Shown: piece after piece, positions 1,751 through 50,495 of the stretch
Position numbering within the stretch: the stretch's first letter is position 1
Layout of the letters: each line of letters opens with the position of its first letter
From: Candidatus Eiseniibacteriota bacterium
GTDB lineage: Bacteria > Eisenbacteria > RBG-16-71-46 > CAIMUX01 > WJJG01
Assembly (NCBI GenBank): GCA_023129715.1
Contig: JAGMBO010000045.1
Span: 1 to 64,000 of the forward strand
DNA: 64,000 nucleotides
Direction of reading: 5' to 3'
Notes under the pieces: model-generated
Database searches by the model: none
Told to the model about the DNA's origin: nothing
The model's input: the letters and a program-made list of their open reading frames with translations, nothing else
Translations under genes and position numbers: made by a program

Positions 1751-4486
1751 CTATGGATGCTGCGGCTCGTACCTGCTGAGCAGGCGCTCGAGTCGCGGAT
1801 CATCCCGCAGGGGCCCGATCTCAGGATCCACGCGGACGCGGGCCACCGAGACCGGCCCCGGGTTGGAGAGCAGCGTCTCGAGCTCGGCGAGGGCCTCGTC
1901 GAACTCACCGACCACAACCAGCACGCGGACGAGATCCCACTGCCGATCTGCGACCCGGAAGGCATCGGAGGCCGCCAACTCCTGCGCGCGGTGCATTGCC
2001 GAGAGGGCTTCTTTCTTGTGCCCCAGGAGGGCCAGCGTGAACCCACGAGTTGCGAGCAACCGGTGATCATCGATCAACTCGGTCTCCAACGAATCGAGCA
2101 CCTCGAGCGCCTGCCTTAACAAGGCACGGGCCTCCTCGACTTGGCCCAGCCAGAGGCGCGCCTTGCCTTCCAGGAGGGCCCTTGGGGCAACCAACTCCTG
2201 CTGCATGATCCCCTCCCGCGGAAGGGGCGTCAGTGTCTCGATGGCCGCCTCATAGTTCCCTGCGATCGACTCGATGTAGTACATGATCAAGATGCTCCAG
2301 GCTTCCCCCCTCCGGGCCCCCGGTGCGCAGACCTGCCGCAGCCGTTCTGTTTCCCCATGCCACAGGAAGTGATTGAAGGCAGCGTAGAACCCCGCACCCA
2401 CATTATTCGGGCTGATCGTCAGGGCGCGACCGCTCCACCGCTCCGCCCGGGGATAGTCGCGCAGCGCCGTGTGGGAGAGGCCGATCTGGGCCGCTAGATC
2501 GGCGTCCCGGGGGTCGAGGTCGAACGCCTGCTCGAGGCTCCCGACCGACTCCCGCCAAAGCCCCTGCCGGCGCCAAATGTAGCCGATCGCACTAAGCAGG
2601 CGGGGCTCGTTCGGCATCTGCCTCGCGGCAACGGCGAACTCATCGAGGGCCCGGTCATAATCGAGATGGCAGTTGTAGAAGTAGTAGCCGAGTTCGAGAT
2701 GCGCCTCGGGATTCTCGGGCTGTAAGTCCAGCGCCTTCTCGACGGCCGCGCGGGCCTGCTCCTTGCGTGCTTCCGTCTTCTCATGGCCATTGAAGTAGAG
2801 ATACCGACTCGCCTTGGCAATGCCGAGGTGGGCGTCGACAAAGGCCGAATCCAGCGCGACCGCCCGCTCGAACATCGCGATGGCGTCGTGACACTCCGCA
2901 GGTTCGACGCCGACGTTAGATCCGACGTCGACGTTGAACACATCGAGTCCCCGCAGGTAGGCTTGGTAGGCGACGAGGTTCTCAGTCGGCCGCGCCTCGA
3001 CCGCCCTCCGCTCCGGTCCGAGCAGGACGACATCGAGCTGCCGGATCGTCTCAGCAGCGATCTCCGACTGCACGGCAAAGACATCCTCGAGCAGCCGGTC
3101 GTAGCTTTGCGCCCAGAGATGGGTATCGTCTGCCACACGAATCAGTTGCGGGGTCACCCGGACGCGGCTGGCGCCCCCCGAGGCCCGGTTCCACCGGACG
3201 GTCCCCTCGAGGACGAAATCGACGCCCAAGTCCTCCCCGACGCGGCTGATCGACTTCCCGGTGCGGTCGTAGCCAACGGCGCTCGTCCGCGAGATGACGC
3301 CCAGGCCGCTCGCCATCGCGAGGCGGCTCGTGATCTCCTCGGTCATCCCGGCGGCGAAGTAGGCATCTTCGGGCGCCCCCAGGTTCTCGAAGGGCAACAC
3401 GACGATCTTCTTCAGATCAGCGATTTGCCGCGCCGGCGCAGCCGCAGCCCCGGGGCGCCCGCCCTCGGTGGCAGTCACCCGGTCATCGGGGGAGGCTTCC
3501 CTGGTGGATGCCCGGTCGCGCGGCCAGAACTGCCATGCGAGGACCGCCACCACGGCAACCACAGCCGCAGCGGCAGCCCAGGGTCGCCACTTGGTCTTCC
3601 GCGGCGCGCGCGAGGAGCGCTCACCGACCGGGCGGGGCTGTTCGCCAGCGCGGGAAGCAATCGGCAGGGTCGCATCATCCAACCTGAGGCAACTCAGATC
3701 TGCGAGGAGATCGTCGGCGTGCTGGTAACGGAGCGCCCGATCTTTCTGCAGGCACTTGGCGGCGATGCGTTCGAGCTCAAGAGGAACGTCGCTGCGCAGC
3801 GCGGTCAGTGGTCGCGGAGCATCGCTGAGGATCGAATGGATCGTCGCCGTCTCGTGATCCGCCCGGAAGGGCAGCCGACCGCTGATCATCTCGTAGAGCA
3901 CGACCCCGAAAGACCAAATGTCGGTGCGCGGATCGACCTCATCGCCACGGGCCTGCTCGGGCGACATGTAGGCGGCGGTTCCGATCGTTGTGCCGGTGCG
4001 GGTCAGATGCACCGCCGCGCCGGACTTGGCCAGCCCGAAGTCCATGACCTTCGCCTGCCCCTTGGAGGTCAGCATCACGTTGGCGGGCTTGATGTCCCGG
4101 TGAATGATGCCCGCCTCGTGGGCCTCCTGGAGTCCCGAGAGAATCTGGGTGGCGATGATAATCGCCTCATCGAGCGCGAGCGGCCCCGAACGGATCCGCG
4201 CCTTCAGACTCGGTCCGTCAACGAGTTCCATGGCCATGAAGGGCCGGCCTTCGGCCTCGTCGATCTCGTAGACGGTGCAGATGTGGGGATGATTTAGGGC
4301 GGCGGCGGCGCGGGCTTCATGCAGGAAGCGGGACTTCTCGTCTTCGCCGCCCAGGATTCGTGGCGAGAGAAACTTCAGGGCAACTTCGCGGTGAAGGCGG
4401 GTATCCTCGGCCCGGTAGACGACGCCCATCCCACCCTCGCCGAGTTTCTCGATGACTCGATAATGGGAGATGCGCTTGCCGAGCAT
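1751..4486 (-). CDS. Transmembrane serine/threonine protein kinase with TolB-like and TPR region
   Basis: A Hanks-type kinase domain occupies about residues 8-275, with glycine loop GEGGMGVVYRAED, catalytic loop HRDIKPAN (about 129-136) and DFGLAKS (149-155). One membrane helix follows a basic stretch near residues 300-320. The outer part starts with a TolB/FlgO-like nucleotide-response domain (IVVLPFENLG to THLWAQSYDR, about 360-480) and continues with TPR-type helical repeats to the end. The layout (kinase, membrane helix, adenylate-cyclase-like TolB domain, TPRs) is common in Acidobacteria, Gemmatimonadetes and FCB candidate phyla and usually treated as a signalling receptor; ligand and substrate are unknown. 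The start at 4486 is supported by GGAGAA eight bases upstream. A tandem repeat lies upstream (4557-4641). Confidence 0.92.
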   Translation of the reverse strand: MLGKRISHYRVIEKLGEGGMGVVYRAEDTRLHREVALKFLSPRILGGEDEKSRFLHEARAAAALNHPHICTVYEIDEAEGRPFMAMELVDGPSLKARIRSGPLALDEAIIIATQILSGLQEAHEAGIIHRDIKPANVMLTSKGQAKVMDFGLAKSGAAVHLTRTGTTIGTAAYMSPEQARGDEVDPRTDIWSFGVVLYEMISGRLPFRADHETATIHSILSDAPRPLTALRSDVPLELERIAAKCLQKDRALRYQHADDLLADLSCLRLDDATLPIASRAGEQPRPVGERSSRAPRKTKWRPWAAAAAVVAVVAVLAWQFWPRDRASTREASPDDRVTATEGGRPGAAAAPARQIADLKKIVVLPFENLGAPEDAYFAAGMTEEITSRLAMASGLGVISRTSAVGYDRTGKSISRVGEDLGVDFVLEGTVRWNRASGGASRVRVTPQLIRVADDTHLWAQSYDRLLEDVFAVQSEIAAETIRQLDVVLLGPERRAVEARPTENLVAYQAYLRGLDVFNVDVGSNVGVEPAECHDAIAMFERAVALDSAFVDAHLGIAKASRYLYFNGHEKTEARKEQARAAVEKALDLQPENPEAHLELGYYFYNCHLDYDRALDEFAVAARQMPNEPRLLSAIGYIWRRQGLWRESVGSLEQAFDLDPRDADLAAQIGLSHTALRDYPRAERWSGRALTISPNNVGAGFYAAFNHFLWHGETERLRQVCAPGARRGEAWSILIMYYIESIAGNYEAAIETLTPLPREGIMQQELVAPRALLEGKARLWLGQVEEARALLRQALEVLDSLETELIDDHRLLATRGFTLALLGHKKEALSAMHRAQELAASDAFRVADRQWDLVRVLVVVGEFDEALAELETLLSNPGPVSVARVRVDPEIGPLRDDPRLERLLSRYEPQHP

Positions 4487-4556
4487 GACACGTTCTCCGA
4501 GCAGAAAAGATCAGCCGCTCGAGATCGATCCTGAATGATCTGCCTGCCCGTTGCAA

Positions 4557-4641
4557 GGCATGCTCGGGGAACTGGCATGCTCGGGGAGCTCTGAGGTAGG
4601 CACAAGACATGCTCGCGGAACTCCGGGGTAGGCACGCGGAG
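4557..4641. repeat. 17-bp tandem repeat upstream of the kinase gene
   Basis: Five consecutive 17-base segments follow the pattern A-A-B-A-B. Unit A is GGCATGCTCGGGGAACT with variants at 4557, 4574 and 4608. Unit B is about CTGAGGTAGGCACAAGA at 4591, with a variant at 4625. The array is 71-155 bases upstream of the kinase start and in the gap after the PHP gene. The core GGCATGCTCG recurs in the array upstream of hslO. Confidence 0.85.
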
Positions 4642-4686
4642 CCCGAGGCGCGCCCGCTAGGCCGGCGACCGGGGCTCTTCTCCCGA

Positions 4687-5670
4687 TCAGGCGTAGCCGC
4701 TGGACCCGAGTCGCCTCACCATGCGCCGCTGCCGGCGGAGAAAGATGTGCGCCGGCCCCCGGGCGATGACCTTGAGGAAGCGGCCCAGTCCGCGGCGAGC
4801 ACGGGCGCTCTGCAAGAGCCCGGAGGAGGTCAGGATCCGCTGGGCGATCCGATATGGCCGCGCCAGCTCCAGACCGATCGACTCGCGCAGTTCCTTGGCC
4901 GGCGTCCCCCGCAGGGCGAGATCGATCGTCTCGCGAATCTCACCCAGGAAGTCCTGAAGCACGAAGTGGCTGGCAGTGACGCGTACATGCCCTGCCATGA
5001 TGTTCCTCAGGTAGGCCTCGGGGGTCTCTCCCGGCGCCAGCGTATACGCCTTCCCGACTTGGCCGGTGTGCGTGTCCGAGGCGGCGACGAATGGCTTGCG
5101 ATACTTGCGCGCCAACCTGGCGGTGCGGTGGTTGAGTTCGCGGATGCGCCCGGCGTTGAGCTCGACGACGGGGATCAGGCGCACGAGCCGCTCGATGGCA
5201 TCGAGATTCGGCCGCTCCCCATGCTCGAACCAGAAGGGATGGTTGTAGGCGCAGAACAGCCCCTTGCGGCGGCAATAGGCGACGAAACGACCGATCGACC
5301 GGCGGCGCGTCATCAGGGCATCCAGATGACGGCGCTCGAGCCCAAGAACATTGATGTGGATCGTATGTCCGATCGAGGGGTCGAGTACCTTCAGCTCGAC
5401 ACCGGTGATCACCGGGATCGGCCAGTGGTCCCCGAACTCCTCGCGCAGATCCCGCCGCAGGACCTCCACGCCGTCGATCGTGTCGTGATCGGTCAACGCG
5501 AAGAAGTCCATGCCCTCCTCGACTGCACGCCGGTAGAGAGCCCGCGGAGAGAAGATGGCGAGATTGGGAACGTCGGGTGAGAAATTGGAGTGCACGTGAA
5601 GATCGGCCTTCCGCAGCCGCGAGCCCGCCTGGATCCCGGTACGTGTGTCCGACCGATGCTGACTGCTCAT
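4687..5670 (-). CDS. PHP-domain metal-dependent phosphoesterase
   Basis: This is a 327-residue polymerase-and-histidinol-phosphatase (PHP) family protein. Metal-binding motif I is DLHVHSNFSPD (23-33) and motif II is ALTDHDTIDG (58-67). Later His/Asp motifs include NHPFWFEHG and ASDTHT. Members act as phosphoesterases on small phosphates or nucleotides in the cytoplasm, and the substrate here cannot be read from sequence. The C-terminal 80 or so residues are basic and outside the catalytic fold. The ATG at 5670 is chosen because GGAGAAGGGA precedes it; an upstream in-frame ATG at 5712 has no such site. It is downstream of and co-directional with the metal efflux operon, with a 188-base gap. 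Confidence 0.88.
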   Translation of the reverse strand: MSSQHRSDTRTGIQAGSRLRKADLHVHSNFSPDVPNLAIFSPRALYRRAVEEGMDFFALTDHDTIDGVEVLRRDLREEFGDHWPIPVITGVELKVLDPSIGHTIHINVLGLERRHLDALMTRRRSIGRFVAYCRRKGLFCAYNHPFWFEHGERPNLDAIERLVRLIPVVELNAGRIRELNHRTARLARKYRKPFVAASDTHTGQVGKAYTLAPGETPEAYLRNIMAGHVRVTASHFVLQDFLGEIRETIDLALRGTPAKELRESIGLELARPYRIAQRILTSSGLLQSARARRGLGRFLKVIARGPAHIFLRRQRRMVRRLGSSGYA

Positions 5671-5858
5671 TCCCTTCTCCAGAGTTGCTGCAGAGTTGCC
5701 GCGACCAGACACGGATCCCGGGGGTCCGACCCGCGCTCGTGCAAGCCGGTCATTCCGGCAGTCATTCCTCAGACCTGTATCAGGAACCGGCGTCTGCCAC
5801 GCCTTGGGCCTGTATCAACAATAGGCATCATGTGGGCTCGGAGTTCCAACTTTTCCCC

Positions 5859-8800
5859 TCAGCTCGCTACTTCCCCGCCCCCTTCCTGCGGCGGCCGCAC
5901 CCAGTAGTAGATGGTCGGTAAGACTAGCAGAGTCAGCATCGTGGCGGTCAGCAATCCCCCAATGACGACCACCGCCAGGGGGCGCTGGATCTCCGCCCCG
6001 CTGCCGGTTGCATAGAGCATAGGCAGAAGCGCGAGAACCGTGGTCGCCGCCGTCATCAGCAGGGCCCGAAAGCGCAGCTCACATCCACTCAGAATGGCCT
6101 CCCGCAAGGGGATCCCGCGCCGCCGGAGCTGATCGACGAAGGTCACCAGGACAGTGCCGTTCTGGACCGCCGTGCCGAAGAGGGCGATGAACCCGATCGT
6201 GGCGGGCACATTGAGGTTGATCCCGAAGATCAGCATCGCCAGCAGGCCGCCGACCAGAGCGAAGGGCAGATTGACCAGCACGAGCCCGGCCGTGCGGATC
6301 GAGCCGAGCGCAGAGGCGAGCATCAGGAAGATGAGTAGAATCGAGAGGGGGACCACCAGCGAGAGCCGGCGCATCGCCCGCTGCTGGTTCTCGAAGGTCC
6401 CGCCATACTCGATCCAGTACCCTGGCGGCAGGCCGCTCGCGACCCCGGCCAAACGCTCCTGCACCTCGCCGACAAAGCCCCCCAGATCGCGCCCGCGGAT
6501 GTTGGCCTCGACCACTACCCGGCGCATGTTGTTCTCGCGGCTGATCTGCGCCGGCCCCTCGGTCCGCCGGATCGAGGCGATTTGCCCCAACGGAACGCGG
6601 GCACCGTCGGGGGCGGGAATCAGGATCTGCTCGATCGCCGCCATGCTGCTGCGCCGCTCCTCCGGGAAGCGCACGAGAACGCCGAAGTGCATCTGCTCTT
6701 CGATCATCTCGGTCGCCACCGTGCCCCCCAACGCGGTCTCGACGATCGTGTTGACGTCCTCGACATTGAGCTGATGACGAGCCATCGCCCGGCGGTCGGG
6801 GATGATCTCGAGCGAGCTGAAACCGGCCACCTGCTCGATGCTGACATCGGCGGCGCCGTCGATCCCGCGCAGGATGCCGGCGACCTCGTCGGCCTGTCGC
6901 TTGAGCACCTCGATGTCATAGCCGAAGATCTTCACGGCCAGGTCGCTCTTGATGCCCGAGATCAGCTCGTTGAGCCGCAGGGCAATCGGCTGGCTGAAGG
7001 CGAGGCGGGTGCCCGGAACCCGGGCGAGCCGCTCCTCGATCGCCGCGACCAACTCCGTCTTGCTGCGCCCGGTCTTCCACTCGGATCTCGGCGCCAGCAT
7101 GATCAACACGTCGGTCTGCTCGGGTCCCATCGGGTCCTCGGAGATCTCCGCCCGTCCGGTCTTGGAGACGACCGTCTCGACCTCCGGGAACGCGAGCACT
7201 TCCTTCTCCATGAAGGCGGCGCTGGCCACCGAACCATTCAACGCGGCATTCGGCAAGCGGACGACGTTGACGGCGATCGCCCCCTCGTCGAGCTGAGGCA
7301 GGAACTCCGTGCCGAGCTGCGTCGCCATCAGGAGCGTGGCCACCAGAATCAGTGCCGCCGCCCCCACGGTCACCCAATGGTGATCAAGCGCCTTGGCCAG
7401 CAGTCGCAGATAGTGCCCGCGAAGCCAGACGAGCGGCCGGGGTTCGGCCAACCGGCCACCGCGCAGCAGGTAGCTGAGGACGACCGGGACGATCGTCTGC
7501 GAGACGATCAGTGCGCCGATCATCGCGAAGATCATCGTCAGGGCCAGGGGTTTGAACATCTTGCCCTCCATACCCTCCAGGGTGAAGAGCGGCAGGAAGA
7601 CGAGAATGATGATCAGGATCGAGAAGACGACCGGGCGGGCGACCTCACGGACGGCATCCGCATACAGACCAATGTCGGGCCGACCGTGCGCCTCACGCAG
7701 CCGCCGGCTGACATTCTCGGTGACGACGATCGAGCCGTCGACCACCATGCCGATCGCGATCGCCAGCCCCCCGAGACTCATCAGATTGGCGGTCACCTCA
7801 CCAATCTCCATGAAGATAAAGGCTATCAAGGCGGTCAGCGGCAGACTTAGGGCGCAGACCAAGGCGGCGCGCAGGTTGCCGAGCACCAGGAAGAGCACGA
7901 GGATCACGAGGATGCCACCCTGCAGCAGTGCGTGTGAGACGGTGCGGATGACATCCGCAACCAGCTTGGTGCGGTCGTAGAAAACGTCGATCTCGACCCC
8001 CTCGGGCAGGGAGGCCTCAATCGCCGGCAGGGCCGCCTTGACGCGCTCGACGACCTCCTTGGAGTTCTCATCCTTGAGCATGATGACGGTGCCCGCCACC
8101 ACCTCCCCGCGGCCGTCCCGCGAGACCGCGCCCAGCCGGGTCATGTGCCCCTCGGTCACCTCGGCCACATCGGCGAGGTACACGGGAGTGCCGCCCTCCG
8201 AGAGCAGGACGACGTCGCGGACATCCTGCGGCGAAGCGAACAACCCCACGCTGCGGATGTTCTCTTGCTCCCAGTCCTTGATGATGAAACCGCCGCCGGC
8301 ATTGGCGTTGTTGGCGGAGAGCGCGGCGATAACGTCCTGTAAGGTGATGTCGTACTCGAGCAGCCGGGCGGGATCGACACGCACGTGGATCTGCTTGACC
8401 AATCCACCGAAGCTATTGATCTCGTTGACGCCGGGGATCATCCGCAGGCGCGGCGCAATCATCCAATCCTGGATCGTGCGCAGTTCGGTCAAGTCGTGCC
8501 GGTCGCTGTGCAACGTGTACTGGAAGACCTCACCTAGCCCGGTGCTGATCGGCCCCATCTCCGGATCGATACCGGGAGGCAGCTGTTCCCGGGCGAGCTG
8601 CAGGCGCTCGAAGACGAGTTGGCGGGCGAAGTAGATGTCGACATGATCCTCGAAGACGACGACCACTTGGGAGAGGCCCGTCCTCGACATCGAGCGCACC
8701 GAGCGCACATGCGGCAGCCCACCCATGACCGTTTCGATGGGGAAGGTGATCTGCTGTTCGACATCCAAGGGCCCCAGCCCCTCGGCCTCGGTCAGGATCA

Positions 8801-21096: not shown

Positions 21097-22680
21097 CTAC
21101 CGGCCCGCGTGCGGCGACTTGCTCCACACCCTCGCACGCGCGGGGATGCTGATTGTGCAATTCTGCTCGGATGCGTCTCCAAGGGGGTTGTTCGCATAGC
21201 GCTCACACCAGTCATTCTCGCTCGTCGTGTAGATCAGACCGGGCGGATGGTGAGTGATGAGAGCGAATCCCCGCAGATCCTCGGCGCCCTCGTTTCCCTC
21301 GTCGGTCGGGTAAGCCTCGTGTCCCGCGGTCAGGACCCCCATGCCTCCGAGGCGGTCAGGTGAGGTCGTACTCACGACACCACCCAGTGGGGGCAGCATT
21401 GCGACCATACCAGTGGTGGGCATTACATCGATCGGGATCACTCCCTCACCATATGCATAGCCCGCGAACCAGTAGAGTGGCTGGAAGTTGCCATGCCACA
21501 AACCGGAGTATAGCACGACGGAGATGCCGTTGTTCGGCGAGGGCCACAGCTGCGCGTCGTGGTAGTAAGCTAAGGCGGATCCGTTCTCGGGCTGACAGAT
21601 GCCGTCAGCAACGAACTCGTAGATGTTGGCATCGAACCCCCCCAGGCCGAACTCGAACCCCGCCCAGGTCTTTTCCTCCTGCCAGGCAGCGAGAACGTAC
21701 CACACCGTGGGGCCCGTCTCACCCCAATGGACATAGAGATCATCCGTGCGGCAGTTGTTCTCTTCATTGATTTCTTCCATGATGCCATCGACATCCACAC
21801 AGGCGACAATCTCGTGGAGTCCCGCACCGAGAGCGCCAAGCCCGCACCAGTCGGACCATTGCGCGGCGCCGACCGGCAGCCCCAACAGATCAAGCCGGCA
21901 CTGCTCCGAGCCATTCAGCTGGATACCCACCTGCGTGCCCTCAGCGTCCGCATAGCCGATGTTCTCCAGCCGGACACGGACATCGACGTCATCCCCCGCT
22001 CCCGGCACTGCCGGCGAGAACTCCAATTGCTGGACCCTCAGATCCGGCAGGTCCGGCGGCAGTGGAATCACCAACGTGGTAGTGGCGTAGTTATTCTCCT
22101 CATCGAGTTCATCGAGATAGTCATCGATATCTGCGCGGGCCTCAATCGCGTGAGTGCCTCCACCCAAGATGCCAAGCCGGCACCAGGCCGTCCAATTGGA
22201 GCTGCCCCGAGGTATCAACCGTGTGCCGTAGCGACAGGCCTCGAGTCCATCGCACAGGAACTGCACATCCGATGTCCGAGCATCTGTCCTGCCCTGGTTC
22301 AGCACGCTGACACGAACGCGCACACTGTCGTCGTATTCCGGCTCTTCAGGGAGGATCTCGAACGCGACAATGACCAGATCGGGGAGCGCTGGCTCCCTAT
22401 CGTCTATGTATGGCCTCTCACCGAGACTTTGCCCCGCTTCGGGGTCGGCCGCGCTGTCTGCAATCGCAGCCCCCTCGGCATCATCAGCCGAACGCTCCGC
22501 CGGCACCGGATCCAGAACTCTCTCGCCATCCTTGTCCGCACAGCCAGCAGACACGAGCAGGGAGACTCCGAAAAGCACGAATGCCCATTGCCTGCCGGCG
22601 AGCAGGGGAGGGCATCGTACTCGGCGTGGGGAATCGTCCGTCCCCCCCCACGACCTCCAGCCCCATGAGCGGCTTGACAT
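21097..22680 (-). CDS. Lipoprotein with two CARDB domains and a WFAGY-type C-terminal domain
   Basis: This 527-residue protein has a lipoprotein signal ending LLVSAGC (Cys47). Two CARDB (cell-adhesion related, Ig-like) domains occupy about 99-206 and 211-318, each beginning LPDL and ending in a D-EENN motif. Residues about 320-455 form a separate domain with VWYVLAAW, EFGLGGFD, WPSPNNGI and PLYWFAGYAYGEG. This domain is clearly homologous to the protein encoded after rnfB (47752-48474); about 40 percent of aligned positions are identical by eye. The rest of the C-terminus is unassigned. ATG 22680 has GGGAGG nearby. The function is unknown; surface binding or assembly is plausible from the CARDB domains. 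Confidence 0.85.
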   Translation of the reverse strand: MSSRSWGWRSWGGTDDSPRRVRCPPLLAGRQWAFVLFGVSLLVSAGCADKDGERVLDPVPAERSADDAEGAAIADSAADPEAGQSLGERPYIDDREPALPDLVIVAFEILPEEPEYDDSVRVRVSVLNQGRTDARTSDVQFLCDGLEACRYGTRLIPRGSSNWTAWCRLGILGGGTHAIEARADIDDYLDELDEENNYATTTLVIPLPPDLPDLRVQQLEFSPAVPGAGDDVDVRVRLENIGYADAEGTQVGIQLNGSEQCRLDLLGLPVGAAQWSDWCGLGALGAGLHEIVACVDVDGIMEEINEENNCRTDDLYVHWGETGPTVWYVLAAWQEEKTWAGFEFGLGGFDANIYEFVADGICQPENGSALAYYHDAQLWPSPNNGISVVLYSGLWHGNFQPLYWFAGYAYGEGVIPIDVMPTTGMVAMLPPLGGVVSTTSPDRLGGMGVLTAGHEAYPTDEGNEGAEDLRGFALITHHPPGLIYTTSENDWCERYANNPLGDASEQNCTISIPARARVWSKSPHAGR

Positions 22681-24527: not shown

Positions 24528-27440
24528 CTAACGCACGACCACCAGCTCCCTCGTCAGTGATTCGCCGAGTATCGAAAGCCTGTAATAGTAACTCCCCGAC
24601 CCCACCCGCCGCCCACCGCGATCGCGCCCGTCCCAGAGGATCTCATGCGTGCCGGCCGTATAGGCGCCGCAGCCCAGCGAGCGGATCTGCCGGCCGCCGG
24701 GATCGAAGAGCTGCAGACAGACCTCGCCCGCGTGCGGTAGGGCAAAGCGTAGGCGCACGACCTGGCCCGCCGCCGCGCCGCCGCCGCCGAAGATGACCGG
24801 GTTCGGCGCCGCTGGCATCAACTGTGGGCGAAGCACCAACTCACGCCCGTCGTCTCCGGGACCAATGTTCGAGGGCGCATCGAGCAACACCTGAACATCA
24901 TCAATGTACCAGCCCTCGGCCGCCACGGCCCCGTCGCCGCCGAAGGCCCAACGCAGAAGCACGTCGCCTTCGTAGGCGCTGAGATCGACCGTCACCTCGT
25001 GCCAATCCTGCTGCCCCGACCAGACGGGGGTTCCGGCCGGGAAGGGACCGAGGACACTGCCGTCGCGGATCAGATAGGGATGGCCCCCCTCGGGTGTCAG
25101 CGGCGTCCAGATCGCGCCGCCGTCGGTCGAGATCTCGAGCAGCCCGCCGTCGTAGCAATACTCCGGGTAGGCAGAACTCGTCTCGGCATCGATCCACTGC
25201 CAGAAGCTGAGCCGCGCCCCGGCGGGCAGATCGAAGGGCACACTCTGCAACAGCCCGTAGGCCTGATGGGCATACTCGGCCGCCCCCGCGCCCCCACACT
25301 TCCAACTGCTCGACCCGCCGGGCGTGCGGTTGCGATAGCTCTCGAGATGCCATTCATCAATCCAGGTTCCGGGGCCGGCGGCATGCGTCCATTGGGCATC
25401 ACCGCTCTCAAGGTCATCGGCGAAGATGCGCCCCACCGCCAGGGGCAGGGTCACCAGGTGATGATAGAGATCGGCTCCCGCGAGGTGCAGATGCAGCCCA
25501 CCGACATGGACCGGCGGGCAGAGCGGATCGACGGTGACCGAGAATCCCCCCACCTCGGCATCCCCGTCGACCGAGATCACTCCGAGCGGCGCGGGGGTCG
25601 GATCGGTGGTGAAGTAGGAATCCCCACTCGTCACGCTCGCCGTCAGATCGGGTGAGTCACAACTCCCGGTGTTGTGAATCGCAAAGGTCAACGTCAGCGT
25701 CTCCCCCGGATCGGGGATCCCATCGCCCCCGTCATCGATCTCGGCAATCACCGCCGTGTAGGCGGGCGCATGCGCCTGCAGGTCGAGCGCCGCCGCTCCC
25801 GGATCCTCGCTCAGCGTGAGGGCCAAACCGAGATCGGCCCCATCGGGAACGTTGTGCGCCACGCGCAGGACGAACGGTGTGCTTCCCGGCACCGAGGTGC
25901 CGGAGGCGATCGTGCCGAAGGAAACCACCGGATCGATCAGGGCTGCATAGCCCGATGTCGTCTCTAGCGTCGCGGTGACCCCCAGGGCATCCTCATTCCC
26001 CAAGTTGTTCAGGGTCACATGCAGTTCGACCGTCTCCATGAACTCGATGATCCCATCGCCGTCACCAACGGAGTTCCCGCCATCGTCGTCATCGATCACG
26101 AGCTCATCAAGGACGAGATAGACGCCTTCGAGATTCCCGTGCAAGTTGAGCACGCTCCCGAGATCCGCGGGCGTACTGCTGTACTGCGGCGTCTCCGACT
26201 CGAAATCATTTGCCTCGGCATAGATAAAGGCCTCTTCCATCGAGACGATGCCGTCGTCGTTCGTGTCGGCGTCGACGGAGTTGCCATCGGGATCCTGCCA
26301 GGCGACGGCACAGGTCCAATGATAGACAAACGTGTCGTAGATGTAGTCGGGCCCCATCGCCCAGGAGTATTCGTCGTAGCGCGCCGCGGTGGCGATCACG
26401 CGGCCGTCACCCGCGAGGTCGTCGATCATCCCGCCGCTGTAGCACTGCTCGAAGGTGCAGACGATCGTCTCGCAGGGCAATGCGTCGATGTAGACCGCCA
26501 ACTCGTCGTCCTGGAGTTCCTCTAAGTTCCACAGGTTGAGATAGCAGTCCCAGCCCGAGACCCGTCCACCATGGTCGGTCGTATAGAGAAAGAGCTGATC
26601 GGAAGCGGTCAGCTCGGCGGCCAGCTCGTTGAAGACCATGTCGATGTAGGTCCGCGTCGCGGGATACTGGATGTCGTCGTCCCCGTCGCCGTCCAGGTCG
26701 GGCGGCGAATTGGTGCCGTCAGAACGATCGGCGGCCGGGTCGGTGCCGTCGGCGATGCAGACATAGATGTTCTCATCGGCGTAGCCGTAATACTCAACCA
26801 GCGCCTTGTAGATGAAGGCGGAATCGTTCCAGTAGCGAATGTGGTTGTTCGAGGCGTTGGCCCCGCCGCTGATGATGAAAGCGAAGGCTCGTCCCCGGGT
26901 CGGCGGGGCCGGCTTCGGCACCACGGCCAGGCGTTGGTCGAGCCAGGCATGCGCGGCGGCAGAGGCCTCGGGCGAGGGATTGTCATGCCCCGCGGTGATC
27001 TCGAGCAAGCGCGGCTGACGCGCGGGCGGCGCCATCGCTTCGTGGACCTGCCGTTCGCCGGTCTCGGCGGAAACGAAGATGTACAGGCAGGGGTGCTCCC
27101 AGTTGGCACCCGGCAGCAGGTCGACGAAGACGAACCAGCCCGCCGCTGGGGCGGTGAAGATCGTCCGCTTCCAGTCGGCCACCGGTGCCCGGGATGCCAG
27201 CAGCTCGGGATCGATGAAGAGCCGCACACCCTCAAGCGAACCTCCCGGCACTGCCGCGGTGGCAATCGCGACCGCCTCGGTGCGGGAGACCGCCGATGCA
27301 CCGGCCGCAGCGGACGCGGCGATCGCGGCCGGCGTCACCGCCGCCGACACCACAATCAGCAGGGCAGGCAGGACACGGCCCCAGTGACGGGAACCCCGAA
27401 AGGCCGGACGGGAATGAGGGATGCGAATCTTGCAAGCCAT
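24528..27440 (-). CDS. Secreted C13 (legumain-like) cysteine peptidase with C-terminal FlgD-like module
   Basis: This 970-residue secreted protein has a signal peptide (about 1-42). The clan CD peptidase domain spans about 184-400: FAFIISGGANASNNHIRYW begins it, the catalytic His290 lies in YTTDHGG, and Cys333 lies in TFEQCYSGG, 43 residues apart as in legumains. An Asp-rich loop (DLDGDGDDD, 248-256) may bind calcium. Downstream are Ig-like repeats with DGIIEFMETVELHVTLNN and GIPDPGETLTLTF (NEW3/CARDB-like), a jelly-roll segment with SFWQWIDAE, and a final FlgD-like module with EILWDGRDRGGRRV and GSYYYRL. Similar architectures occur in FCB-group genomes. It starts 20 codons inside the opposite-strand region upstream of the aminopeptidase gene. 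Confidence 0.88.
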   Translation of the reverse strand: MACKIRIPHSRPAFRGSRHWGRVLPALLIVVSAAVTPAAIAASAAAGASAVSRTEAVAIATAAVPGGSLEGVRLFIDPELLASRAPVADWKRTIFTAPAAGWFVFVDLLPGANWEHPCLYIFVSAETGERQVHEAMAPPARQPRLLEITAGHDNPSPEASAAAHAWLDQRLAVVPKPAPPTRGRAFAFIISGGANASNNHIRYWNDSAFIYKALVEYYGYADENIYVCIADGTDPAADRSDGTNSPPDLDGDGDDDIQYPATRTYIDMVFNELAAELTASDQLFLYTTDHGGRVSGWDCYLNLWNLEELQDDELAVYIDALPCETIVCTFEQCYSGGMIDDLAGDGRVIATAARYDEYSWAMGPDYIYDTFVYHWTCAVAWQDPDGNSVDADTNDDGIVSMEEAFIYAEANDFESETPQYSSTPADLGSVLNLHGNLEGVYLVLDELVIDDDDGGNSVGDGDGIIEFMETVELHVTLNNLGNEDALGVTATLETTSGYAALIDPVVSFGTIASGTSVPGSTPFVLRVAHNVPDGADLGLALTLSEDPGAAALDLQAHAPAYTAVIAEIDDGGDGIPDPGETLTLTFAIHNTGSCDSPDLTASVTSGDSYFTTDPTPAPLGVISVDGDAEVGGFSVTVDPLCPPVHVGGLHLHLAGADLYHHLVTLPLAVGRIFADDLESGDAQWTHAAGPGTWIDEWHLESYRNRTPGGSSSWKCGGAGAAEYAHQAYGLLQSVPFDLPAGARLSFWQWIDAETSSAYPEYCYDGGLLEISTDGGAIWTPLTPEGGHPYLIRDGSVLGPFPAGTPVWSGQQDWHEVTVDLSAYEGDVLLRWAFGGDGAVAAEGWYIDDVQVLLDAPSNIGPGDDGRELVLRPQLMPAAPNPVIFGGGGAAAGQVVRLRFALPHAGEVCLQLFDPGGRQIRSLGCGAYTAGTHEILWDGRDRGGRRVGSGSYYYRLSILGESLTRELVVVR

Positions 27441-29223: not shown

Positions 29224-29988
29224 TCAGAGTGCCGCATCGAAGGCGGAGCGTTCGATCCAGTGAGCACATCCGCAGCGGGGGCAGAGGAACTCCGCGCCTC
29301 CGTCCGTCCCGAAGAGTTCCTCCGGCTGACCGCGGAAGAACTTGACCGCAACGTCCAGGATCCGTTCGTAGGTGCAGGAGCAGAGAAATCGCACCGAGCG
29401 TTGCTCGATGGCTACCATCCCGGGCTCGTGGAGCAGGGCCTCCCCCTCTTCGCGCGAGAGTGATCGCAGCCAGGGCTCATCGACGTCGGGCAGTGCCATC
29501 AGCATAAGAAACGCATCCTCATCGTACTCGAAGAAGCGCGCGGTCGCCTGCTCCGACTCGGCGTAGTAGCGTTCGAGCATCAGCAGGACATCGAAGCCGG
29601 TCACATCGATGACGCTCTGGTGCGGCTGGCCGGATGGACGGACCAGTTGGACGAAGAGGCGGCCATGGGGTTCGGCCTGGACATGCCGGTCGAAGAAGCG
29701 CCCGGTCACGGTGTCCACGGCGGCATCGGCGACGAAGAAGAGATTGAGGGGCGGCTCGGGCAGATTGACCGTCCAGGCGGTCTCCTCGTCGCGGGGCCGG
29801 CAGGTCAAGTAGAGCGCCGCGGCGGCGAGTCCCTGGCGCATCATCGCCAGCACCAAACCATCGGGATCTCCGACCCACCGGCGGGAATGCTCGATGTAGT
29901 CGCCAAAGAGCGCGGTGAAGACGCCCCGGGCGGCGAGCACGTTGCGCTCACGAGACATGTAGCGATCGATCACGACTTCCCGGGCCAT
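29224..29988 (-). CDS. hslO: Hsp33 redox-regulated chaperone
   Basis: Hsp33 is a cytoplasmic holdase activated by oxidation and heat. The 254-residue protein matches the family's usual length. The zinc/redox switch is intact near the C-terminus: FLCSCTYERI followed after 30 residues by FLCPRCG (CxC-X30-CxxC). The N-terminal core begins VLAARGVFTALFGDYIEHSR. The start at 29988 is chosen because CAGGAG precedes it by seven bases and the family begins here; an in-frame extension to 30234 consists only of the 24-bp repeat translated as EWHARRHQ-like units. It ends seven bases from the aminopeptidase stop, convergent. Confidence 0.93.
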   Translation of the reverse strand: MAREVVIDRYMSRERNVLAARGVFTALFGDYIEHSRRWVGDPDGLVLAMMRQGLAAAALYLTCRPRDEETAWTVNLPEPPLNLFFVADAAVDTVTGRFFDRHVQAEPHGRLFVQLVRPSGQPHQSVIDVTGFDVLLMLERYYAESEQATARFFEYDEDAFLMLMALPDVDEPWLRSLSREEGEALLHEPGMVAIEQRSVRFLCSCTYERILDVAVKFFRGQPEELFGTDGGAEFLCPRCGCAHWIERSAFDAAL

Positions 29989-29994
29989 ACGTAT

Positions 29995-30138
29995 CTCCTG
30001 GTGGCGACGAGTATGCCACTCCTGGCGGCAACGAGCATGCCACTCCTGGTGACGACGAGCATGCCACTCCTGGCTGCAACGAGTATGCCACTCCTGGCGG
30101 CGACGAGCATGCCACTCCTTGTGACGCTGAGCATGCCA
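29995..30138. repeat. Six 24-bp tandem repeats abutting the hslO start
   Basis: Units begin at 29995, 30019, 30043, 30067, 30091 and 30115. On the minus strand each unit reads about TGGCATGCTCGTCGCCGCCA plus GGAG, so every unit carries a CAGGAG (CAAGGAG in the outermost) Shine-Dalgarno-like block. The block of the innermost copy is the ribosome-binding site of hslO. Four of the six copies also place an ATG (TGGCATGCTC) shortly after the block of the neighbouring unit; the other two have ATA. Confidence 0.95.
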
Positions 30139-30232
30139 CCGCCCGCGACCGCAGGTCAATCGGACTGCCGACTTGACCCTGGCCAGGCACTGCCGGCTTG
30201 ACCCTGGCGGCGCGAGGGAGTAGAGGGAGGCC

Positions 30233-31420
30233 ATGCATGGTGACTACCGCAAGCGGCGTTTGGGCCGACGCCAGGACTACTTCCTCCGGCCGGCACCGCC
30301 GACCGCTCGAGCCGCGGCGACTCTGCTGATCCTGCTCTTCCCGATTCTCGCCTGCACACCCGATGGGCGCCCCTCCCGGGTGGCGAAGTACGTGGCCTCG
30401 CGGGATGTGATGAGCACGGTGGCCTCGATCACCCTCGTGGCGGACACGCCCGAAGAGGCTGGGCGGGCGATGGATGCCGCCTTCGCGGCGCTCGATAGCG
30501 TCGAGGCGTGGATGAGCGCTTACCGGAGCGAGGGCGATCTGGCCCGCGTCAACGCCATGGCGGCGCGTCGGCCGGTCCCCGTCGGCAAGGAGACCTTTGA
30601 TGTTCTGCGGGCCGCCGAGCGGTTCACGGCACTCACCGGCGGCGCCTTCGATGTCACCGTCGGTCCCTTGATCGTGATCTGGCGCGATGGCGCGAGTAGC
30701 CAGCGGCTCCCGCACGAGACGGAACTGCGTGCCGTTCGCGGCCGGGTGGGGATGTCGTTGGTGTCTCTGGATGCAGCGACACAGAGCGTCACATTCGCCC
30801 GCAGCGGCGTGCGCATCGACTTGGGCGGCATTGCCAAGGGGTATGCCATCGACCAGGCCGTCGATGCCGCCCGGGCTGCGGGCGTGGAGGCAGGGTTGAT
30901 CGAGGTCGGCGGTGACCTGCGCTGCTTCGGCCGCATCCCGCGGGCGTTGGTCGGCCTGACGGCCGATCGCATGGAAGGGGATCTCTGGCGCTCGCCCGAC
31001 ACAGTATTCGAGGATCTCCAGCCCTGGCCCCTCGGCATCCAAGACCCCTTCGAAGAGGATCTGCTGGGCAAGATCCGCATCCCGGAGGGTGCGGTCGCGA
31101 CCTCCGGCCACTACCGCCGTTTCAGTCTGATCGAGGGGCACAGGATCTCCCACATCCTCGACCCACGCAGTGGCTGGCCGGTGACCGACCCGGCCAGCGT
31201 GACCGTGATCGCCCCCGATGCCCTGACCGCCGATGCGCTGGCAACGGCCCTGAGCGTCCTGGGCGCCGAGAAGGGGTTGGCACTGGCCGACTCGCTCCCG
31301 GGGGTTGAGGCCCTGATCGTCGGTGGAGATGCGGCCGCCCCCCGCCGGGCGGCCAGCGCGGGATTCCCCCCATTGGAGCCCCTGGGGGCGGCGAACGCGC
31401 AGAACCGGGAAGGATCCTGA
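30233..31420 (+). CDS. apbE: ApbE-family FAD:protein FMN transferase (lipoprotein)
   Basis: This 395-residue enzyme attaches FMN covalently to Thr residues of flavoproteins such as RnfD, RnfG and NqrB/C on the outer face of the inner membrane. The lipoprotein signal ends FPILAC (Cys41). Family motifs include SVEAWMSAYRSEGDLARVNA (about 86-105), TGGAFDVTVGPL, DLGGIAKGYAID, LIEVGGDLRCFG and GAVATSGHYRRF, then HILDPRSGWPV near the metal site. It is the only flavin transferase seen in the window and the rnf operon 11 kb away encodes two likely substrates. It diverges from hslO; two copies of a TTGACCCTGGC-containing sequence lie upstream (30164-30208). Confidence 0.92.
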   Translation: MHGDYRKRRLGRRQDYFLRPAPPTARAAATLLILLFPILACTPDGRPSRVAKYVASRDVMSTVASITLVADTPEEAGRAMDAAFAALDSVEAWMSAYRSEGDLARVNAMAARRPVPVGKETFDVLRAAERFTALTGGAFDVTVGPLIVIWRDGASSQRLPHETELRAVRGRVGMSLVSLDAATQSVTFARSGVRIDLGGIAKGYAIDQAVDAARAAGVEAGLIEVGGDLRCFGRIPRALVGLTADRMEGDLWRSPDTVFEDLQPWPLGIQDPFEEDLLGKIRIPEGAVATSGHYRRFSLIEGHRISHILDPRSGWPVTDPASVTVIAPDALTADALATALSVLGAEKGLALADSLPGVEALIVGGDAAAPRRAASAGFPPLEPLGAANAQNREGS

Positions 31421-46738: not shown

Positions 46739-47755
46739 ATGCCAACGATGTTCAGCCTAGCCCTACTCGCCGGGGGCTACCTGGTCAGCACGCCGCTGCT
46801 GCTCCTGTTGATCGGCCTCTTCTTCGCCATCATGTTGACGATCGCTCACCATCGGCTGCGCGTTGAAGAAGATCCCACCGTCGTCGCGCTCATCGAGGCG
46901 CTGCCCGGGGCGAACTGCGGCGGCTGTGGTCTACCCGGATGCCCCCAATTCGCCGAGGCGATCGCCGAAGGGCGGGCCCAGCCCTCGGATTGCGTCGCCG
47001 CCTCCGAGGAAACAATCAAGGCCGTCGCCGAGATCCTCGGCGTCGAGGCCACCGCCGGAGTCCCGCGCCGCGCCGTGATCCACTGTGGCGCGAAATTCCG
47101 CGAGCGCTTGCGCCGCCCCGACTACATCGGCGTGGCCACCTGCACCGAGATGAACATGGTCGCCGGAGTCCAGGGATGCACCTATGGCTGCCTAGGGCTC
47201 GGGGACTGCGCCCGATCGTGCCCCTTCGAGGCAATCACCATGGTCGCCGGGCTCCCGGTGGTCAACTACCGCACCTGCACCGGGTGCGGCCAGTGCATCG
47301 AGGCCTGCCCGCGCGGGATCATCACGGTCGAGGAGATGATCGATGACCCGCTGCTCGTGATCGCCTGCAGCTCGCAGGATGCCGGCAAGCAGGTGCGGGC
47401 CAACTGCTCGGTCGGCTGCATCGCCTGCGGGGTGTGTGCGAAGCTGGATCCGGAGACCTGCGAGGTTCCCGCTAATCTCTGCACGGTGAAGTACTCGGCA
47501 GAACGCTACGGAAGGACCGGCGACCACGAGCCGGCCGTCGAGAAATGCCCGACCTCGTGTTTGCTACTGGTGGGTGCGGGGATTGAAGATCCCCACGAAT
47601 TGGTCGAGCGCAAGACACGCGAGAAGGTTGCACGCGCGGCAGCGCGTGCAGCGCAACAGCAGAGGATCGCTGCGTCTTCTGCAAGCAACGACGCACCGAA
47701 ACCTGGCGCCGCAGTCGACGCAGATGCCCCTTCGGGCAAGGAGGATACGCAGTGA
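46739..47755 (+). CDS. rnfB: Rnf electron transport complex subunit RnfB
   Basis: RnfB accepts electrons from soluble ferredoxin at the cytoplasmic face. The 339-residue protein has one membrane helix (about 10-36), the 4Fe-4S motif CGGCGLPGC (60-68), then 8Fe-8S and extra ferredoxin-like motifs: CAR-SCPFEAI, CTGCGQCIEACPRGI and CSVGCIACGVCAKL. A charged and Ala-rich tail ends the protein. GGAGG lies upstream of ATG 46739. The stop codon overlaps the GTG start of the following secreted-protein gene. Confidence 0.95.
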   Translation: MPTMFSLALLAGGYLVSTPLLLLLIGLFFAIMLTIAHHRLRVEEDPTVVALIEALPGANCGGCGLPGCPQFAEAIAEGRAQPSDCVAASEETIKAVAEILGVEATAGVPRRAVIHCGAKFRERLRRPDYIGVATCTEMNMVAGVQGCTYGCLGLGDCARSCPFEAITMVAGLPVVNYRTCTGCGQCIEACPRGIITVEEMIDDPLLVIACSSQDAGKQVRANCSVGCIACGVCAKLDPETCEVPANLCTVKYSAERYGRTGDHEPAVEKCPTSCLLLVGAGIEDPHELVERKTREKVARAAARAAQQQRIAASSASNDAPKPGAAVDADAPSGKEDTQ

Positions 47756-48474
47756 GACGAGCAACTCCGCCATGGGTTCTGCTGTTGGCACCGATTGCCA
47801 TGGTTGCCCTGATGGCTCCCCTGGAAAATCCCGCCCCAGGGCTGCCCAACGGCCAGGCCTGGGCCGAGCCGGACGGCTCGGACCTGGAAGCTTATGCCGA
47901 TAGCCTGGCCGGCGGCGTGATGATTGTTCATGTGGTTCCGGAGTTGACCTACACCCACCCGGGTCCCGCGGACGGCTGGTGTGCCTTCTGCGACCTAATG
48001 GCTTGTGAGGGCCAGATCAATCGCGTCGGCGAAGGCACGACCGTCTGGTATGTCGTCAGTGCGTGGGCCGGAGAGAAGACCTTCTCCGCCGTCGAGTTCG
48101 GCTTGGGCGACTACGACCCCAACCTCTATGTCATCGTCGACCATGACCCCTGCTGGCGGCATGGGATGACGCTCCACTTCCCCGACATCACCAAGTGGCC
48201 CGCACCCAATACCGGAATCGCGCTCGCGGCCACCCGCGAGAACTGGGTGGGGCGCTTCGTGCCGATCTACTGGTTTGCCGGGTACCACTACGAAGGTGAA
48301 GGCCAGATCCCGCTGGCCGAGTTTCCCCCCACGCAGCACGCCGGGTGGGTCAATGCCGCACGGCCCTCGACAACCTACGATGCGGCGTGCCTCGGGGCGC
48401 TGGGCGTAGGCACTGCCGGCCGCGCGTGTTGTCCGGAGGGGCCGGACGGTGAAGTAGTGAGCGAGGGGAACTAG
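47752..48474 (+). CDS. Secreted protein of unknown function coupled to rnfB, with WFAGY-type domain
   Basis: This 240-residue protein starts with GTG that overlaps the rnfB stop as GTGA, so it is translated with the rnf operon. Residues about 5-25 form a signal peptide. A short CAFCDLMAC cluster (77-85) precedes a domain (about 92-235) with TVWYVVSAW, EFGLGDYDPNLY, WPAPNTGI and PIYWFAGYHYEGEG. The same domain forms the C-terminal module of the CARDB lipoprotein at 21097-22680. I know no assigned function for it. In the periplasm or outside it could serve cell-envelope or redox roles, but this is open. Confidence 0.8.
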   Translation: MRRATPPWVLLLAPIAMVALMAPLENPAPGLPNGQAWAEPDGSDLEAYADSLAGGVMIVHVVPELTYTHPGPADGWCAFCDLMACEGQINRVGEGTTVWYVVSAWAGEKTFSAVEFGLGDYDPNLYVIVDHDPCWRHGMTLHFPDITKWPAPNTGIALAATRENWVGRFVPIYWFAGYHYEGEGQIPLAEFPPTQHAGWVNAARPSTTYDAACLGALGVGTAGRACCPEGPDGEVVSEGN

Positions 48475-49991: not shown

Positions 49992-50495
49992 GGCAGCTTC
50001 CTCCTCCGCAGAACACTTGGGGGCGGAACCCCCTAATCACAACATTCGCAACAAGAAAGAGGACCCGGACGTCGGCCGGCGCCCTGTCTCATCATCGTCA
50101 TTCTACCCGAGAGAAGGAACCGAGGACACCACTACACACCGGCGGCCGAGAAGAAGATCCCGCCCCGGAGCGGCCCTCATGGAACCGGAACTCGAGCCCC
50201 GGACGGGGGGCCGGACGTCTCTCCGTGTTACTTCTCAGCGTTGCTCGTTCGTGGTGCTCGTCCGCGTTGCTCGTCCGTGTTGCTCCTCCGTGTTGCTCCT
50301 CCGTGTTGCTCGTCCGTGCTGCTCCTCCGTGCTGCTCCTCCGTGTTGCTCTCTCGTGACGCTCTCTCGTGGTGGCGTCCGTGCAGAGAAGGACAGCCGCG
50401 GCACCGACCGGCTGGTAGAGTCTCCTACTGAATGGCTCCGCACGAATCTCGAACGTGCTGGGGGCGAGTGGACCGGATGGAGGAATGAATCAATC
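49992..50495. other. Divergent intergenic region between ispD and the ASCH gene
   Basis: About 500 bases that contain the 13-bp tandem array (50240-50369) and presumably both promoters. Open frames across it are repetitive translations of the array, not genes. Confidence 0.6.
50240..50369. repeat. Ten 13-bp tandem repeats
   Basis: Units close to GTTGCTCCTCCGT start every 13 bases from 50240 to 50357. The middle copies differ by one or two bases, the outer ones by more. The array lies 249-378 bases upstream of ispD and 127-256 upstream of the ASCH gene. The unit is not a multiple of three. Confidence 0.93.

Follow-up and report, generated by a model that had tools for sequence, protein, structure and literature searches.

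Cohesin domains hold cellulosomes together. To place a domain shared by two proteins of a Candidatus Eisenbacteria genome, both encoded in one window (the whole stretch of 64,000 nucleotides that was analyzed), we compared it with cohesins (PF00963; PDB 2vo8, 6kgf, 4dh2) and with two modules that occur in proteins of its family. Like cohesins, the domain is predicted to fold as a beta-sandwich, carries a G-x-x-F-x-hydrophobic-x-Y-D-P strand at a comparable position, and is a module of exported multidomain proteins. Unlike cohesins, to which it shows no significant sequence or profile similarity, it has an extra Cys-containing loop of ~35 residues after strand 1, its copies are N-terminal and single, and the genome of the window lacks a dockerin. 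CARDB (PF07705), also a module of secreted proteins, accompanies the permuted copies described below, but is a separate domain without profile similarity to the family. Several family members end in a T9SS-like C-terminal domain, as do the FlgD_ig and Por tail proteins (PF13860, PF18962); this tail, however, is a separate module, and the window protein has none.

A lineage-expanded family of exported-protein domains

The first of the two proteins is encoded next to rnfB.

47752-48474, plus strand: gene whose exported product of 240 aa has a single domain (GTG start; ORF listing)
47752-47865, plus strand: probable signal peptide, MRRATPPWVLLLAPIAMVALMAPLENPAPGLPNGQAWA, assigned by reading the sequence
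47899-48027, plus strand: block A, first strand and Cys-containing loop (block-A HMM, 2.3e-15; AlphaFold2 strand E17-22)
48037-48441, plus strand: block B, TVWYV ... YWFAGY ... CCPEG (block-B HMM, 1.2e-55)

The start of this gene and the stop codon of rnfB share four bases (GTGA, 47752-47755), and a good ribosome-binding site (AAGGAGG, 47738-47744) was read ahead of the start at 47752. The initial annotation had described the product as rnf-coupled. The neighbourhood is not kept among the relatives examined: no copy adjoined rnfB in loci from G002, G003, G004, G008, G009 and G010, and one copy in G009 lies ~7.5 kb from rnfB on the same contig. Because rnfB has no adjoining copy in these relatives, the link to Rnf is local and accidental.

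BLASTP of the window protein (47752-48471, plus strand) against the lipoprotein (21100-22680, minus strand) gave 43% identity and 54% positives over 147 residues (E 9e-26), with an alignment spanning query residues 95-233 and subject residues 323-465. A profile of the 12 canonical copies matched both segments (cE 9e-71 for the window protein and 2e-40 for the lipoprotein), and the similarity is therefore far beyond chance. The BLASTP alignment covers the motif blocks listed in the initial annotation, which had thus given the shared domain, its residue ranges and its motifs correctly. The length of about 110 positions proposed there was too short, since the full domain in an alignment of the 12 canonical copies (alignment A1) has ~180 residues and consists of block A (L-x-G-G-V-h-h-x-H-x-P-P...Y-T...W-C, also seen as GGVLIxHxPP…WC) followed by block B, which holds every motif listed earlier. 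Block A escaped the earlier alignment with the lipoprotein because it lies downstream of block B in that protein.

Profile searches of Pfam (E<=5) and NCBIfam with the window protein returned zero matches, which agrees with the earlier view that the family has no name. The sole match of the lipoprotein above a curated cut-off was CARDB, outside the shared segment, and the family profile matched no PDB sequence at E<=10. Titles and abstracts on cohesins, dockerins or sorting in Eisenbacteria did not describe the domain.

The genome of the window comprises 4.83 Mb in 186 contigs, of which the window is contig C127. A sequence search of this genome gave 16 strong matches, and after the profile search we counted 15 near-complete copies, of which 12 are canonical and three belong to lipoproteins (the window lipoprotein has one, a single protein on C177 has two), as well as two copies cut by contig ends (on C25 and C119). 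The A1 profile matched 14 of the 47 genomes of the phylum, including all five of the family and all 11 of the order, with 1 to 38 matches per genome within the order; outside the order, 3 of 36 Eisenbacteria genomes were matched, weakly. A GTDB scan of 84,980 species genomes, which needs near-exact short motifs so that distant relatives in other phyla could escape it, recovered ten loci in three MAGs (RS_17_35 and Bin_233, both Candidatus Eisenbacteria, and Co_bin.215, labelled 'bacterium'). The family had no match among viral contigs, plasmids and phages, and such mobile elements were rejected as carriers of the domain.

These results define an undescribed, lineage-expanded family of exported-protein domains in one order of Candidatus Eisenbacteria. 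The sharing between two genes noted at first is real and is just the visible part of this large family, and the proposal that the domain is mobile as a module among the lineage's exported proteins was borne out by ~17 copies in the genome of the window, varied partners and presence in 11 of 11 genomes of the order. In this uncultured lineage, exported proteins with this unannotated domain are a visible part of all those exported.

Block order in the CARDB lipoproteins

The second protein of the window carries the two blocks in the opposite order.

21097-22680, minus strand: CARDB lipoprotein with the permuted domain (ORF listing; lipobox LLVSAGC; CARDB E 1.8e-21)
22081-22383, minus strand: CARDB domain 1 (PF07705)
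21745-22047, minus strand: CARDB domain 2 (PF07705)
21304-21708, minus strand: block B, N-terminal here (block-B HMM, 1.4e-38)
21163-21282, minus strand: block A, C-terminal to B here, LRGFALITHHPPGLIYTTSENDWCERY (block-A HMM, 2.7e-10)

Searches with the block HMMs found the order B-A in only the three lipoprotein copies and the order A-B wherever else block A was detected. A block-A profile built from canonical copies alone matched the three lipoprotein segments at 2.7e-10, 1.2e-9 and 2.1e-12, each C-terminal to block B, and the block A of the window lipoprotein scored 43.9 bits against a best score of 7.2 among 2000 shuffles. In the reverse test, the profile was built from the permuted copies, three in number; it placed block A upstream of block B in many canonical proteins and gave no full-length B-A match in other genomes of the order. 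Judged from sequence, the lipoprotein copies are a circular permutation of the canonical domain, with both halves homologous to it and their order swapped. An AlphaFold2 model of a permuted copy, for which the input alignment held block-B rows only, reached a pLDDT of 32.

The three permuted copies formed one clade in the tree (support 100/100), and the simplest reading of this is one origin followed by duplication. Identity among them is 54-65%, and they are spread over two contigs, which makes an assembly error unlikely. The permutation would have arisen, most likely once, in an ancestor of the CARDB lipoproteins, where a tandemly duplicated domain (A-B-A-B) was trimmed to B-A. The new termini that it exposed may allow a CARDB stalk to hold the domain at its tip or in its middle. 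Canonical and permuted forms within one genome are a rare natural pair, useful as a test of how a beta-sandwich tolerates new termini.

Partner modules and C-terminal tails

In most copies the domain lies directly behind a signal-peptide-like N-terminus; it is internal in L022, L029 and L030. Among the modules joined to it are two peptidases, an S8 subtilase in L020 and one of type C10 in L030. Beta-helices occur with it in L021, L022, L029, L030 and L068, a PF00963 cohesin in L071, and CARDB in L025 and the window lipoprotein. A Cys-rich repeat of ~38 residues (ACCxGxxCxILTExECxxxGGTWxxxxxxCDPNPC), which has no Pfam match, follows the domain in 1-7 copies in L022, L028, L029, L030, L031, L067 and others. 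The L071 protein (3848-5968) has a FlgD_ig tail and combines the family domain with the PF00963 cohesin and with a stretch that resembles a dockerin by eye and is without a match in Pfam.

Most proteins with a visible C-terminus end either in a FlgD_ig/T9SS-like domain, as assigned from Pfam matches and C-terminal sequences, or in a …[ST]WGxIKxxYR tail, and never in both. A C-terminal sorting domain (FlgD_ig or Por) was present in nine other family members and absent from both window proteins. Neither kind of tail was found in the window protein, the lipoproteins and L027, and L065 and L066 end otherwise, possibly owing to a frameshift or a contig end.

The second tail, [ST]-W-G-x-[VIL]-K-x-[LMI]-[YF]-R-COOH, occurs on exported proteins throughout the phylum. 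We counted it by the DNA pattern W-G-x-h-K-x-h-[YF], with the reversed pattern as a control, and obtained 45 matches versus 0 in the window's own genome and ~735 versus 7 in the 47 genomes, family f11 being nearly without it. From four genomes we collected 65 distinct ORFs with the tail (L083-L112 from the window's own genome and L133-L162 from G015, G025 and G028; none lies in the window). The distance from motif to stop was 8-17 residues in all 65. Of the two flanking positions, which are not part of the pattern, the one ahead of the motif was S or T in 65/65 and the one after [YF] was R in 53/65. The last 50 residues of these ORFs contained no hydrophobic stretch or transmembrane segment, a crude test found a signal-peptide-like start in 47 of the 65, and five sample tails had no meaningful match in Pfam and NCBIfam. 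On these sequence features, the WG tail may be a new sorting signal. It is unlikely to be the ligand of the domain, because many tail-bearing genomes have no detectable domain. As a possible mark of an undescribed sorting route, this side finding may matter more than the domain.

Predicted fold and candidate roles

AlphaFold2 modelled the window domain, aligned with 13 relatives, as all beta (pLDDT 86, pTM 0.86). When this model was searched against the PDB with Foldseek, ranks 1-12 were all cohesins (probability 1.00, E 6.9e-4 to 6e-3), with moderate TM-scores of 0.46-0.63 by target length and 0.38-0.45 by query length; a search of viral structures gave no informative match. The model thus predicts a cohesin-like beta-sandwich. 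In profile comparison with cohesins encoded within the order, hhalign gave a probability of 1-1.6% and P of 0.03-0.05, which is not significant; the score was above those of the CARDB and FlgD_ig controls, and the YDP strands of the two families were in register. None of the hhalign comparisons, whether with cohesin, CARDB or FlgD_ig, was significant, and homology to these at the sequence level is not supported.

We consider it fairly probable that this lineage-expanded exported family, a predicted beta-sandwich of ~180 residues that was most likely permuted once, is a non-catalytic extracellular module for binding or display. The predicted fold, export, repeated recombination with different effectors, and conserved aromatics and cysteines all argue for this role, in which the domain would lie outside the cell and bind a ligand.

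The aromatics (WP, YWFAGYAY) might instead belong to a carbohydrate-binding module of secreted hydrolases. Their conservation in alignment A1, the modelled beta-sandwich and the fusions to beta-helix proteins and hydrolases are consistent with this, but the identified partners are mostly peptidases, beta-helices and Cys-rich repeats rather than glycoside hydrolases, and we regard it as unlikely. The location of most copies immediately after the signal peptide, together with the two tails in which most intact proteins end, would also suit an N-terminal targeting or export module, with the C-terminal tail routing proteins through an undescribed secretion system; the WG tail is found in many genomes without a detectable domain, however, and the copies in L022, L029 and L030 are internal, so that this role seems quite improbable. 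About as improbable is the reading of the domain as a genuine but diverged cohesin, with dockerin-like partners that it would dock to build an assembly resembling a cellulosome: cohesins are the top Foldseek matches, PF00963 is present in 9 of the 11 genomes of the order and shares the L071 protein with the family domain, and the YDP strands are in register in the best local profile match, but the window's own genome has 0 matches to the PF00404 dockerin, profile similarity is below significance, and most copies occur singly at the N-terminus of the effector itself, versus in tandem on a scaffoldin.

As a binding or display module, the domain would bring its partner (a peptidase, a beta-helix, Cys-rich repeats or a CARDB stalk) to a surface ligand, which could be a protein or glycan of the cell envelope or else a polymer outside the cell. 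A broader and doubtful extension is that Eisenbacteria display proteins at the surface by an undescribed WG-tail route, and that in one order a permutation-tolerant family with a cohesin fold serves as a docking module without dockerins.

Elsewhere in the window, 24531-27440 (minus strand) encodes a C13 (legumain-like) peptidase with a FlgD_ig C-terminus, and so a further exported peptidase whose tail is T9SS-like. Ten 13-base units in tandem (CTCCGTGTTGCTC) lie at 50221-50350, upstream of ispD, and a 24-base unit is repeated six times in tandem at 29995-30139, within the ORF at 29224-30234 (minus strand).
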